DNA of 64,000 nt, taken from a virus. A program made the translations under genes and the position numbers. The stretch covers positions 1 through 64,000 of IMG/VR virus record IMGVR_UViG_3300011118_000005; one strand, 5' to 3'. This document shows positions 3,660-30,003 of this stretch, in pieces; the first letter of the stretch is position 1, and each line of letters begins with the position of its first letter. The notes below the pieces were generated by a model. The model was not told the origin of the DNA and made no database searches. It was given only the letters and a program-made list of their open reading frames with translations.

Positions 3660-3679
3660 AGTTCTCTCCTAAGTTAAAG

Positions 3680-3996
3680 TGGAGGCGTGGGGAATCGAAC
3701 CCCAGTGCCGTAATCTCTCCATGTGAGCGTCTACAAGTTTGTCTGCTAACCGCAGCGGCTCGGTGGCCACCTTGAGCGGCTTACTTTAAGTTACCTGACA
3801 GCCGCAGTCAGGACCGAGCCACATTGGTGACGGGCATCAGAGGCGTTGTGGCGACCCCTCTGGACCCGGCTGCTAGGCAGCGAGTGCGTAGTTTGCTTCA
3901 GCGCTTGAAGGTTCTGGTCGGCTTTTTAAGTGGCCCGCTGACCAACCACTACTTGCAACTCACACTTTGACAATCCGGTCGATACCAGTCGCCCCC
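3680..3996 (-). ncRNA. ssrA: Transfer-messenger RNA (tmRNA)
   Basis: A one-piece tmRNA of about 317 nt. The 5' end GGGGGCG pairs with CGCCTCC at the 3' end (seven pairs, one G-U), followed by discriminator A. CCA is not encoded. The T-arm CTGGGGTTCGATTCCCC lies just upstream of the 3' end, and a D-loop-like GACTGGTATCGACCGG follows the 5' end. Between them is the tag frame at 3873-3902. tmRNA with SmpB rescues stalled ribosomes and tags the product for proteolysis. No smpB is visible here, so host SmpB is presumably used. Boundaries come from the acceptor stem. Confidence 0.9.
3873..3902 (-). other. tmRNA tag-peptide frame AEANYALAA
   Basis: Within the tmRNA, nine sense codons followed by TAG encode A-E-A-N-Y-A-L-A-A. 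The ALAA end is the degron recognised by ClpXP-type proteases. The resume codon is inferred to be GCT. Upstream in-frame codons exist, so the tag could start slightly earlier. Confidence 0.8.
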
Positions 3997-4988: not shown

Positions 4989-5549
4989 TTAATTCTCAGC
5001 AGTAATCTTGTTTTTTAATGAGTCCGATAAAGGTGTGGTTATAACCTGCTTGTCAATCTCAACGAGTTCACCGTCTATAATGGTTTTCTTGTAGGTAGTC
5101 TCCTGTCGATGCGTAGCGCGGTTGCTAGGCATCCCGTTTGCCATGCTACCAATGTATACTACCTCTCGCCCAGTAACCGCAGCTTCCTGTTTCAGAAGTT
5201 CATTCAGTCTCTCGGCGGCAATCTCCTCAGCGTGCGATTCGTCTTTGGCCCAGAACACACATAAGGCTCCTATATAGTCTCCCCAGCTAAGTTCCTTCCA
5301 CTCGTGCTCCATACAGTCATTGGAGACCCTTTTCAATCGATCTCCGGTCTGGCCATAGGCATTTTTGATCTCATAGGTGTACTGCCACAAGTCCATTGGC
5401 TCAATATCAGGCAACTTCTGATCGAGTCCATGGTCTTCAACGTAATCATAGTTGTAATAATTGCGGAAGGCTTCTGCATCCTCTTCGGTAGAAAACACGC
5501 CTTTGATAGTGTAATCCGAATAGTCGCCATGTGTTACAATGTAAATCAT
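4989..5549 (-). CDS. Conserved phage-type protein with N-terminal DUF7336-like motif
   Basis: A 186-residue acidic protein beginning MIYIVTHGDYSDYTIKGVFS. The 'Y-x-V-x-x-G-x-Y-S-D-Y ... V-F-s-t-e-e-d-A' start matches a small domain common at the N-terminus of phage proteins of unknown role. The remainder is unrecognised. AAGGAAGAA precedes the ATG directly after the stop of the last repeat gene, so it is probably the last gene of that transcript. Confidence 0.6.
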   Translation of the reverse strand: MIYIVTHGDYSDYTIKGVFSTEEDAEAFRNYYNYDYVEDHGLDQKLPDIEPMDLWQYTYEIKNAYGQTGDRLKRVSNDCMEHEWKELSWGDYIGALCVFWAKDESHAEEIAAERLNELLKQEAAVTGREVVYIGSMANGMPSNRATHRQETTYKKTIIDGELVEIDKQVITTPLSDSLKNKITAEN

Positions 5550-5556
5550 TTCTTCC

Positions 5557-5745
5557 TTATCTCCCAGATACAGACCGAGACCCAGACCCAGACCCAGACC
5601 AAGACAAAAACCCAGACCAAGACCAAGACAAAAACCCAGGCCAAGAACAAGGCCAAGAATCAGATCCAGACCTAGATCCAGACCTAAACCGAGACCTAGA
5701 CCTAGACCCAGACCAAGACCGATATTTATATTTTTTGGATTTCAT
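5557..5745 (-). CDS. Ser-Arg/Gly/Trp dipeptide-repeat protein D
   Basis: A 62-residue low-complexity protein: leader MKSKKYKYR, then alternating Ser with Trp, Gly or Arg (SWSGSRSRSRFRS...). The alternation follows from the NGGTCT unit, in which TCT is Ser and TGG/GGG/CGG/AGG give Trp, Gly, Arg, Arg. Its ATG overlaps the stop of copy C (ATGA) with GGAG nearby. It ends just before the ribosome site of the 4989-5549 gene. Predicted disordered and highly basic. RNA or acidic-surface binding is only a guess. Confidence 0.6.
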   Translation of the reverse strand: MKSKKYKYRSWSGSRSRSRFRSGSRSGSDSWPCSWPGFLSWSWSGFLSWSGSGSGSRSVSGR

Positions 5746-5918
5746 CGTTTACTCCAAGACCCAGACCCAGACTGAGACCGAGACCCAGACCAAGAACCAG
5801 CCCACCACCAAGATGGAGACCAAGACCCAGATCGAGACTGAACCACAGACCTGGACCCAGACCAAGACCTAGATAAAAACCTAGATAGAGACCGATATTT
5901 CTGTTTTTTGGATCTCAT
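5742..5918 (-). CDS. Ser-Arg/Gly/Trp dipeptide-repeat protein C
   Basis: A 58-residue protein with the leader MRSKKQKYR. It is followed by the most degenerate of the four repeat domains, which includes a VVQ interruption and a WWW run. The reading frame is still intact and the stop overlaps the start of copy D. The ATG lies a few bases after the stop of copy B. Retention of frame despite decay of the repeat argues for selection on the protein. Confidence 0.55.
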   Translation of the reverse strand: MRSKKQKYRSLSRFLSRSWSGSRSVVQSRSGSWSPSWWWAGSWSGSRSQSGSGSWSKR

Positions 5919-5921
5919 TAT

Positions 5922-6110
5922 TTATGTCCCAGACCGAGACCAAGACCGAGACCAAGACCGAGAACCAGACCGAGACCAAGACCGAGACCAAAACCAAGAC
6001 CAAGACCAAGGCCTGCACCGAGAACAAGGCCCAGACCCAGACCCAGACCGAGACCAAAACCAAGACCAAGACCAAGGCCCAAACCGAAATTTCCGTTTGT
6101 TAGATTTCAT
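5922..6110 (-). CDS. Ser-Arg/Gly/Trp dipeptide-repeat protein B
   Basis: A 62-residue protein with the leader MKSNKRKFR and then a Trp-rich repeat (GPWSWSWFWSRSGSGSG...), broken once by a short Cys-containing stretch. AGGGG precedes the ATG, which lies inside the 3' end of copy A. Same layout as copies C and D. Confidence 0.6.
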   Translation of the reverse strand: MKSNKRKFRFGPWSWSWFWSRSGSGSGPCSRCRPWSWSWFWSRSWSRSGSRSWSRSWSRSGT

Positions 6111-6357
6111 AGTTGCCCCTAGACCTAGACCGAGCCCAAGACCCAGACCCAGAACCAGACCGAGACCAAGACCAAGACCCAGACCGAGACCAAGACCAAG
6201 TCCCAGACCGAGACCCAGACCGAGACCAAGACCTAGACCAATACCTAGACCAATACCTAGACCAAGACTCAGGTCCAGACCAAGACCAAGACCGAAACCC
6301 AGACCGAGACCCAGACCGAGACCAGGGGCGATATTTATTTTTCTTAGAAGTTGTCAT
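6100..6357 (-). CDS. Ser-Arg/Gly/Trp dipeptide-repeat protein A
   Basis: The longest copy at 85 residues: leader MTTSKKNKYR, then long alternation of Ser with Arg, Gly and Trp, ending RSRGNYEI. Its ATG overlaps the stop of 6354-6614 (ATGA). The four copies share a leader of the form M-[KRT]-[ST]-[SKN]-K-x-K-[YF]-R and thus form a tandem family within one operon. Confidence 0.6.
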   Translation of the reverse strand: MTTSKKNKYRPWSRSGSRSGFRSWSWSGPESWSRYWSRYWSRSWSRSGSRSGTWSWSRSGSWSWSRSGSGSGSWARSRSRGNYEI

Positions 6358-6614
6358 TTCACATCGCCGAATGATTCAATTGCCGAGATCTGCACGTATG
6401 CCGCTTTTCCCGGCAATTGTTGAGCATCTCTCCATCCTGGATCAGAAAAAGATCCAGTCTCATACACAATTGAGGCATCTTCCAATTTGATGCAGGTATC
6501 ATTGATACCGACCAATTTGCCAGTGTAAATATAATTCATACACCAGACGGCAATCGGGTTTCCGAGGTATGCTGCCAATCCTTCATTCTCATTGTCTTCA
6601 ACAATTACTTTCAT
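6354..6614 (-). CDS. SH3/Sm-like small barrel protein, conserved phage type
   Basis: An 86-residue protein. The central part (YIYTGKLVGINDTCIKLEDA, then YETGSFSDPGW) matches a family of short phage proteins with the pattern YxTGxLxxxxxxxLxLEDAxxxxxTGxFS. These look like SH3/Lsm-type barrels and have no established function that I know of. TGGAGAT precedes the ATG. It heads the segment carrying the repeat genes. Confidence 0.6.
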   Translation of the reverse strand: MKVIVEDNENEGLAAYLGNPIAVWCMNYIYTGKLVGINDTCIKLEDASIVYETGSFSDPGWRDAQQLPGKAAYVQISAIESFGDVK

Positions 6615-7829: not shown

Positions 7830-8369
7830 CTAAAATTCATACCCGGTTAGCAGAAGATCGGTGGCGAACCGTTTAGCCACTGCCGCCTTAGTCACATCGT
7901 TGTAGTACACTCGGTAATCTCGGTCTCGCTCCAGCACGCCATAGGGCTCGGTTTTCACCGGCTCCATTCCGGCTTCTAACATGAGATTGTGGAGATCCTC
8001 TTCCAAATTCTCGAATCTCAGTACACGATTCGCCCATTGCAGACCGTAGTAGTACGGGTCATTATCCTCTACGTAGTATCCGCTTTTGAACCCGCCTAGC
8101 ACATAGGGCTCAAATTCTCCAGGCTTCGTCCGTACCCCACGCTCCTCAAAGTGCCAATTGAAATACCAGGATACTGCGAGATCGAATGGATTACGAATGG
8201 TGCAGGCAACAATGCCTCCATCTGCAAGGATCTGCTCGCATCTTTTAGGGACCGCAGTGTGGTGCCCGTCGTGAGTATCACACCCAGCAGCCACTAGCGC
8301 CTTTCCAGTGGCCCGGCTCGCCGTGCGAGGGTGCCCAATAAAGGCAAACTTGTCGCCTAGCACATACAT
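7830..8369 (-). CDS. Sulfotransferase-like protein
   Basis: A 179-residue protein resembling PAPS-dependent sulfotransferases. It has an N-terminal strand-loop FAFIGHPRTASRAT (the phosphosulfate-binding loop, PRTAS) and CTIRNPFDLAVSW, which matches the 3'-phosphate-binding strand/helix (R-N-P-x-D). The C-terminal YRVYYNDVTKAAVAKRF...GYEF is typical of the family's last helix. A second homologue lies at 29329-30003. A phage substrate is unknown; virion or host glycans are possible. It overlaps the coiled-coil gene by 13 bases. Confidence 0.75.
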   Translation of the reverse strand: MYVLGDKFAFIGHPRTASRATGKALVAAGCDTHDGHHTAVPKRCEQILADGGIVACTIRNPFDLAVSWYFNWHFEERGVRTKPGEFEPYVLGGFKSGYYVEDNDPYYYGLQWANRVLRFENLEEDLHNLMLEAGMEPVKTEPYGVLERDRDYRVYYNDVTKAAVAKRFATDLLLTGYEF

Positions 8370-28890: not shown

Positions 28891-29339
28891 TATTTTCTCC
28901 TTTTAACCAAGTCGACCATAACATCTAATGAAAATCGATAACCAGGAAGTGCTGCGTCATAGTGACAACTATATCTAACAGGCAGGATTTCATGAAATAC
29001 TTTTTGTATACGCATACGGCCAACTGCCTCAAAATTATATGAAACAATAAAATCACAATTGTTCATAAATTCAGCTAGCTGACGTAATGCAGGTAATATA
29101 TATTCTTCATAGAAGATATAGTATCCGTCTTCTCTTTTTACCAGAGCTTGGCTATCATGCTCTGACAAACCCCATTGACAATACAAATGATCTCCAGGCT
29201 TTTCGCTATCAGAAAACATCTTTTTTTGAGTCTCTTCAGGACACCTGATCACTGGCACCTTAACCAGCTTCAAAAGTTCATCGGCCAAATTCAATCTCAT
29301 ACCATCTAATGCCAAAAAATCAGTCACTTTAATCCTCAA
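28890..29339 (-). CDS. Hypothetical protein
   Basis: A 149-residue protein with mixed alpha/beta prediction and three Cys. It is placed between a nuclease and a sulfotransferase and overlaps both. No family was recognised. Confidence 0.5.
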   Translation of the reverse strand: MRIKVTDFLALDGMRLNLADELLKLVKVPVIRCPEETQKKMFSDSEKPGDHLYCQWGLSEHDSQALVKREDGYYIFYEEYILPALRQLAEFMNNCDFIVSYNFEAVGRMRIQKVFHEILPVRYSCHYDAALPGYRFSLDVMVDLVKRRK

Positions 29340-30003
29340 ATTGGTAACCAGTCAGTTCTAGATCCTTACCCCACCGATCCTCAACTAATTTTTGATTCCC
29401 AGGACTATAATATTCCCTGTAATCTTGGGATCTATTCGACTTGCCGACATGCTCTAGTTCTGTTACTTCCATTCCTAATTCGTCTTGGAGAATAGGAATC
29501 ACAGAACCAATGACTTCAAAAGGAATTGTATAATTGGAATAAGGGACGCCAAAATGGTATAGTTCAGGGTCAAGATATTGGTGGCCACGGCACATAATTT
29601 TATTGAGCCACCTACCAAAATCTTTTTGTGATACAGCGGTCTCCGTGAGTCCCTCTGCCTCGGAATTATATGCTGACGGCATAGCTCTAGCATACCATGA
29701 AACCAAAACATCAAACATATTACGTTTGACACAGGAGACCATTCCACCATACTCCAAAAACATCTCACACACTTCAACATCCATGTCATGATGCCCGCCC
29801 AGCATCAAAGTGCCACCTTTGTGTAAAGCCTGAGAGACCGCCCTGGAAGCCGTTCGAGGGTGTGCAAGAAAGACAAAACCACCTTTGCCATTCTCCCGCA
29901 AAAGATCCTCATTTCTCTCTGCCCATCTTTTCCATTGGCTTGGGCCTATCACACCCGGCTTCACCGGTCCTTGAGGCAAATGTTTTCCGTAGATATACAT
30001 CAA
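29329..30003 (-). CDS. Sulfotransferase-like protein 2
   Basis: A 224-residue paralogue of 7830-8369: FVFLAHPRTASRAVSQAL supplies the phosphosulfate loop, CVKRNMFDVLVSWYA the 3'-phosphate strand (R-N-x-x-D), and QDYREYYSPGNQKLVEDRW ... LTGYQFE the C-terminal helix. It has an N-terminal extension of about 40 residues absent from the first copy. Two such enzymes in one phage suggest that sulfation matters to it, perhaps of a surface glycan. Confidence 0.75.
   Translation of the reverse strand: MMYIYGKHLPQGPVKPGVIGPSQWKRWAERNEDLLRENGKGGFVFLAHPRTASRAVSQALHKGGTLMLGGHHDMDVEVCEMFLEYGGMVSCVKRNMFDVLVSWYARAMPSAYNSEAEGLTETAVSQKDFGRWLNKIMCRGHQYLDPELYHFGVPYSNYTIPFEVIGSVIPILQDELGMEVTELEHVGKSNRSQDYREYYSPGNQKLVEDRWGKDLELTGYQFED

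Follow-up and report, generated by a model that had tools for sequence, protein, structure and literature searches.

Eukaryotic SR proteins and the RG-tailed Sm proteins (SmD1, SmD3 and LSm4) combine Arg/Ser or Arg/Gly low-complexity chains with RNA-binding domains. A hexanucleotide repeat that is translated into Arg-rich dipeptide repeats is described for human C9orf72; there the translation is pathological and proceeds without an AUG, and the disease proteins are reported to phase-separate. The phage locus analyzed here resembles C9orf72 in that a hexanucleotide repeat encodes Arg-rich dipeptide repeats, but it consists of genes that have starts and leaders and bear the marks of selection. 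It differs from the SR and RG-tailed Sm proteins in that the chain is a separate gene, in which Trp and Gly are as plentiful as Arg and Ser alternates strictly; no homology is claimed. The product of the adjoining gene is alike to the Sm/LSm/SmAP/Hfq superfamily in predicted fold.

The window, i.e., the whole stretch of DNA that was analyzed, covers 64,000 of the 66,681 bases in a virus record. Its minus strand carries four tandem ORFs with Ser at every second residue (x-Ser genes): gene 1 (6100..6357; 85 aa, net charge +15), gene 2 (5922..6110; 62 aa, +13), gene 3 (5742..5918; 58 aa, +12) and gene 4 (5557..5745; 62 aa, +11). They lie where the preliminary description had put them, the lower edge being 5557 and not 5556. 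The coding-strand hexamer is NGG-TCT, so that x is Trp, Gly or Arg. The tract scored up to 271 with TRF, and no comparable repeat was found in the rest of the window. All four ORFs begin with an ATG and a basic leader (MTTSKKNKYRP, MKSNKRKFRF, MRSKKQKYRS and MKSKKYKYRS for genes 1–4), close to the form M-x-S-K-K-x-K-[YF]-R given for them earlier. Gene 3, the most diverged copy, had been said to keep its frame, and it was indeed open throughout (5918-5742). Overlapping starts and stops had also been proposed; genes 1 and 2 overlap by 11 nt and genes 3 and 4 by ATGA, but genes 2 and 3 are separated by 3 nt. That the x-Ser frames are open says little by itself: whichever base N is, an NGGTCT repeat is free of stops in four of its six frames, and the case therefore rests on comparative tests. 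When the repeat protein was used as a query against known phages, no match was obtained, probably owing to low-complexity masking.

At the head of the cassette lies an 86-aa acidic ORF (6354..6614, minus strand; pI 4.3), whose stop overlaps the start of x-Ser gene 1 by ATGA. This gene was absent from the preliminary description and turned out to be key to the finding. Its product was modelled by AlphaFold2 from a 55-sequence family alignment (A2), giving a pLDDT of 92 and a helix followed by five main strands. The top matches of the model in the PDB were all Sm/LSm (best Foldseek E 1.2e-3), with VIA Z up to 10.6 to Sm/LSm chains over ~70 residues; Z was ~10 to archaeal SmAP and spliceosomal Sm chains. 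On this model, the protein is confidently predicted to have an Sm/LSm fold, i.e., a short N-terminal helix and a five-stranded barrel. Unlike members of the superfamily, it had no sequence match in the PDB, and no Pfam, PHROG or NCBIfam match above cut-off. The Sm motifs are partly present. Judged by eye from the alignment, the G-x-L-x-G-V of Sm1 and its terminal L are there, the RNA-contacting D-x-x-M-N reads N-D-T-C-V, and the Sm2 region reads YVQxxAIESF.

Nine relatives of the 86-aa protein were found in viral contigs in a first scan. A profile scan with the alignment of these nine gave 116 viral-contig relatives, of which the best 80 were taken. Two further relatives were on MAG contigs and one was in a phage record of GenBank that does not annotate the ORF. 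Nearly all of the ~95 Sm-like copies from viral contigs were followed directly by an in-frame x-Ser gene, which usually overlapped the Sm-like gene or started within a few nucleotides of it and had a leader such as MRGLKQKYRS, MKRSLKQKWS or MISKRNKYRS. Two loci (L044 and L046) were clearly without an array gene, three (L012, L062 and L082) gave no array score, and one (L060) stopped at the contig end. The array was reduced to a handful of units in L036, L066, L071 and L092, the short form in L036 being MTRGLKQKYRSGS. The proposal that these are genuine protein genes agrees with the homologous loci, where the arrays are almost everywhere in frame and start-bearing, and not frameshifted or start-less. 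The mean pI of the Sm-like proteins was 4.9.

A second Sm-like family (A3), marked by the motif AWIADTGRF, also precedes x-Ser arrays, with leaders like MNxAxxRxGY; it is homologous to the family of the window (hhalign E 6e-9, prob 96%). In a reverse test, arrays were sought by DNA pattern alone, ignoring the Sm-like gene, and TCK-type arrays were counted away from contig edges. Among the matches listed, 69 of 96 TCK-type arrays had an A2 or A3 Sm-like gene no more than 400 nt away, and 20 of 23 AGY-type arrays were behind one; about a quarter of the listed TCK-type arrays had no detected Sm-like gene adjoining. Several of the arrays without such a neighbour share the leaders of the others and are tandem or secondary copies, L175 and L198 being examples. 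A neighbour census revealed no recurring third cassette gene: no other family occurred in more than 6 of 53 loci, which indicates that the Sm-like and x-Ser genes travel as a unit. As read from these comparisons of sequence, the cassette is a small acidic Sm-like gene plus a basic x-Ser gene, the second being present in four tandem copies in the window.

Selection on the array protein itself is well supported. Five serine codons (TCT, TCG, TCA, AGC and AGT) are used across the arrays, usually one per array at a purity of 95–99%. The hexamer thus varies between phages (GGTCTN, GGTCGN, GGTCAN, GGAGCN, GGAGTN), and [WRG]-Ser stays constant. No route by single substitution leads from TCN to AGY or back. 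On the tree of the Sm-like protein, from which L036 was left out, the array changed between TCN and AGY ~8 times (7–9 in bootstraps), and four of these changes were forced by well-supported branches. The repeat has therefore been rebuilt several times from a different hexamer in the same frame. W, G and R were all present in 51 of the 52 arrays of at least 12 units. Three NGG states, no more and no fewer, were used in 45 arrays, and the codon left out was in each case one for Arg (CGG in 34, AGG in 11); the Arg share of x was.267 in AGG-only and.262 in CGG-only arrays. The proportions at x (~W 32 : G 38 : R 30) were homogeneous between arrays (chi-square 116, 102 df, p =.16, with counts made partly non-independent by shared ancestry). 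With rising GC content, CGG was increasingly preferred to AGG and the type of Ser codon shifted too, as in ordinary genes.

The leaders were compared in pairs picked by nucleotide identity, with the frame ignored. Codon changes were synonymous in 52% of cases in the x-Ser frame, versus 10% and 9% in the other two, and nearest-neighbour pairs agreed in direction (p =.005 for codon phase). This comparison of synonymous and nonsynonymous change had been put forward with the preliminary description, and by it the leader evolves as coding DNA in the x-Ser frame only. At the first position of the x codon, the majority base had a share of.45 within the arrays, and at the other five positions one of.93–.98, so the variation is concentrated where the amino acid changes. 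The +1-frame products (GL, GR, GA, GV) were also considered as the true coding sequence, N then being synonymous. This reading was rejected: the +1 product differs between phages, in TCA arrays N would change the amino acid (Gln/His), and the leader codon changes favour the x-Ser frame.

The repeat might instead work as nucleic acid, as an RNA hairpin, a protein-binding DNA repeat or an NGG-rich tract, with the ORF incidental. NGG is kept in 90% of the x codons, and the TCT, TCG and TCA arrays mostly out-fold their shuffles as RNA (z -6.8, -1.8, -6.0, -3.0 and -3.4), which such a role would predict. The AGT array, however, barely folds (-7 kcal/mol) and encodes the same protein, and an RNA hairpin was therefore rejected as the common feature. 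Since, moreover, the hexamer differs between phages while [WRG]-Ser stays, the Arg share is equal through either codon, and the leader shows the codon changes described above, we consider a nucleic-acid function very improbable. Neutral microsatellite slippage, with no function at all, is scarcely credible: slippage does produce homogenised units and length changes of 6 nt that keep the frame, but it would not be expected to tie the arrays to a single gene family whichever gene the search starts from, to conserve a leader, to keep W, G and R nearly always together, or to concentrate variation at a single nonsynonymous base.

Arrays differ even between close relatives. L020 matched L022 and L027 exactly across the entire Sm-like gene and 600 upstream bases, and at 99% identity across 600 downstream bases, whereas the array-holding stretches measured 246 versus 195 nt, with differences at 21 aligned sites. 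Similarly, L051 and L053 were identical in the Sm-like gene and the upstream DNA, and their arrays differed by 84 nt, i.e., 14 units. Gaps were mostly multiples of six. The number of tandem x-Ser genes was four in the window and 6–8 in L120, L175, L198 and L182. The largest cluster seen, in L096 (5697-8793, minus strand coordinates), has at least 10, with the leader MITKR[ST][KR]W. Six viral contigs (L034, L040, L041, L055, L057 and L058) stop inside an array, as if length variants had broken the assembly. A host-takeover or counter-defence factor, in which the chain binds a host or rival protein and turnover reflects arms-race diversifying selection, would suit arrays that differ between flanks 99–100% identical, copy numbers that vary, and contigs that often end inside arrays, the last being consistent with population heterogeneity. 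We nevertheless regard such a factor as unlikely, since W:G:R is equal between arrays, which looks less like the diversification of an antigen than like a bulk property that is conserved, and the 6-nt steps are explained by slippage alone.

A pattern scan also detected [Tyr/Asp/Ser]-Gly hexamer arrays, mostly behind a small gene of the family DUF6948 (PF22253) or a look-alike. This cassette shares its architecture with that of the window, a small gene with, immediately downstream, an alternating dipeptide-repeat gene built from a hexanucleotide, and this likeness is one of architecture, not of family membership. The constant residue is Gly instead of Ser, and Tyr and Asp stand in place of Trp and Arg, making the arrays anionic. 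It occurs in the cultured phages Pectobacterium phage Ymer, Iodobacter phage PhiPLPE, in which the array is unannotated, and Vibrio phage IKEMa6-1. The top 50 matches of a DUF6948 model were all Sm/LSm or Sm/LSm-like, with Z 7.7, just under the safe level of the tool. Sequence homology between the window's Sm-like family and DUF6948 was tried and is unsupported (hhalign prob 0.8%); neither the window protein nor its nine relatives reached the PF22253 gathering score, and DUF6948 against the intermediate family A3 gave only E 0.0024 and prob 12%. In Chlorobiaceae phage CV-1-33 (L456, 1198-1443), a DUF6948-like gene is followed by one whose annotation gives an Ala/Met repeat protein (MAMAMALAMA...), which is probably an x-Gly array in the wrong frame. 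Other x-Gly arrays (L218, L261, L309 and L332) are rich in Asn, Phe, Trp or Glu; some are tandem, and some have no recognised DUF6948 nearby.

The x-Ser array proteins had a median of 64 residues and a net charge per residue of +.17, and consisted of Trp (12%), Arg+Lys (19%), Gly (15%) and Ser (39%), with ~1% acidic residues. They had been likened to SR-type proteins. In composition the likeness holds, but RS is a minority dipeptide; moreover, an SR protein joins an RS-rich domain to an RRM, and the array proteins had no Pfam domain above cut-off. If Trp and Arg act as stickers, with Gly and Ser spacing them, the make-up is what might be expected of a phase-separating RNA-binding chain. Published reports describe aromatic residues as stickers (PMC12677899) and phase separation by Arg-rich dipeptide repeats (PMC10275993). 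A FUS domain that evolves fast yet phase-separates, as described in a further report (PMC7947763), may offer an analogy for the arrays.

The mechanism that we favour, tentatively and at less than even confidence, is that of an RNA-binding sticker-and-spacer polymer, scaffolded by the Sm-like protein, that gathers RNA into an assembly serving the phage. Linkage, coding, the amino-acid recipe and rapid, frame-preserving turnover are read from sequence, and the fold from a predicted model; the RNA, the interaction, the assembly and the benefit we infer. The Sm-like protein would form a ring or a similar scaffold and bind RNA. The repeat chain would be its multivalent partner, making contacts with RNA and with itself: Arg would bind RNA, Trp and Arg would be the cohesive stickers, and Gly and Ser the spacers. 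Docking may be the part played by its conserved leader. Together the two may gather RNA into an RNP assembly or condensate, which could protect phage transcripts or sequester host RNA. Function would then depend on composition and length, not on exact sequence, and the array would for this reason be free to vary. RNA binding and condensate formation, suggested originally from composition, appear more plausible given the Sm-like partner. A fold as common as Sm, however, shows no function. Several observations count against this mechanism: the RNA-contact residues of Sm1 and Sm2 are only partly present, about a quarter of the TCK-type arrays lack a detected Sm-like neighbour, and the handful-unit arrays of four loci do not sit easily with a polymer unless the genes there are defunct.

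The pairing of an acidic protein with a basic chain would be just as well explained if the one neutralised or chaperoned the other. The chain could be a cationic, Trp-rich toxic or membrane-active peptide, with the Sm-like protein as its antitoxin or chaperone, encoded first and translationally coupled. The gene order with its ATGA coupling, the strongly basic chain opposite an acidic partner, and the movement of the two-gene unit between contexts would all follow. Up to 10 tandem array genes, as in L096, would be odd for a toxin, arrays shrink to a few units in some phages, and we know of no antitoxin with an Sm fold. Furthermore, the sibling DUF6948 arrays are anionic, so cationic toxicity cannot be the shared function. 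Taken together, a toxin pair seems to us a shade less probable even than a counter-defence factor. To return to the Sm-scaffolded polymer, it may, as a doubtful extension held still more loosely than the mechanism itself, exemplify a widespread undescribed class of phage RNP, in which a freely evolving, composition-selected polymer has been rebuilt repeatedly beside an Sm-like scaffold, in a cationic version (Trp/Arg/Gly-Ser) and an anionic one (Tyr/Asp/Ser-Gly).

The Sm-like/x-Ser cassette appears to be undescribed, with DUF6948 as a named, uncharacterised neighbour. That no such phage family had been described is borne out as far as Pfam, PHROGs, NCBIfam and open-access papers go. Searches of open-access PMC, which are weak evidence, found no paper on phage tandem dipeptide-repeat proteins, on a comparable phage Sm-like protein or on DUF6948. 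Many uncultured phages carry the cassette, and cultured ones its DUF6948 sibling; common as the gene pair is, annotation misses or misframes it. Whatever its function, one amino-acid recipe rebuilt from different DNA repeats is clear natural evidence of selection on low-complexity composition. If the proposed mechanism is true, phages use minimal, nearly designed disordered W/R/G/S polymers together with an Sm-like protein, and the sequence rules of condensates would be testable in a simple genetic system in which evolution has already run many replicates.

Other genes of the window were also inspected. The gene at 4989-5549 (minus strand), which has an N-terminal DUF7336, starts 8 nt past the last repeat gene. 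It was discarded as a handle on the system, having no relatives in viral contigs and a DUF7336 match that was unrelated. Among the minus-strand genes of the phage, several are concerned with RNA handling: a Ro60-like protein with TROVE and Ro60 vWA domains (13839-15422), an RNA ligase domain (PF09414) with an OB-fold domain like PHA02142 (19183-20322), and a tmRNA with the tag AEANYALAA (3677-3996; 104.7 bits in Rfam). No Y RNA was found at Rfam thresholds. In the ORF list, the proteins encoded at 7830-8369 and 29329-30003 (both minus strand) contain the similar motifs FAFIGHPRTASRA and FVFLAHPRTASRA, which suggests that the two are a paralogous pair.
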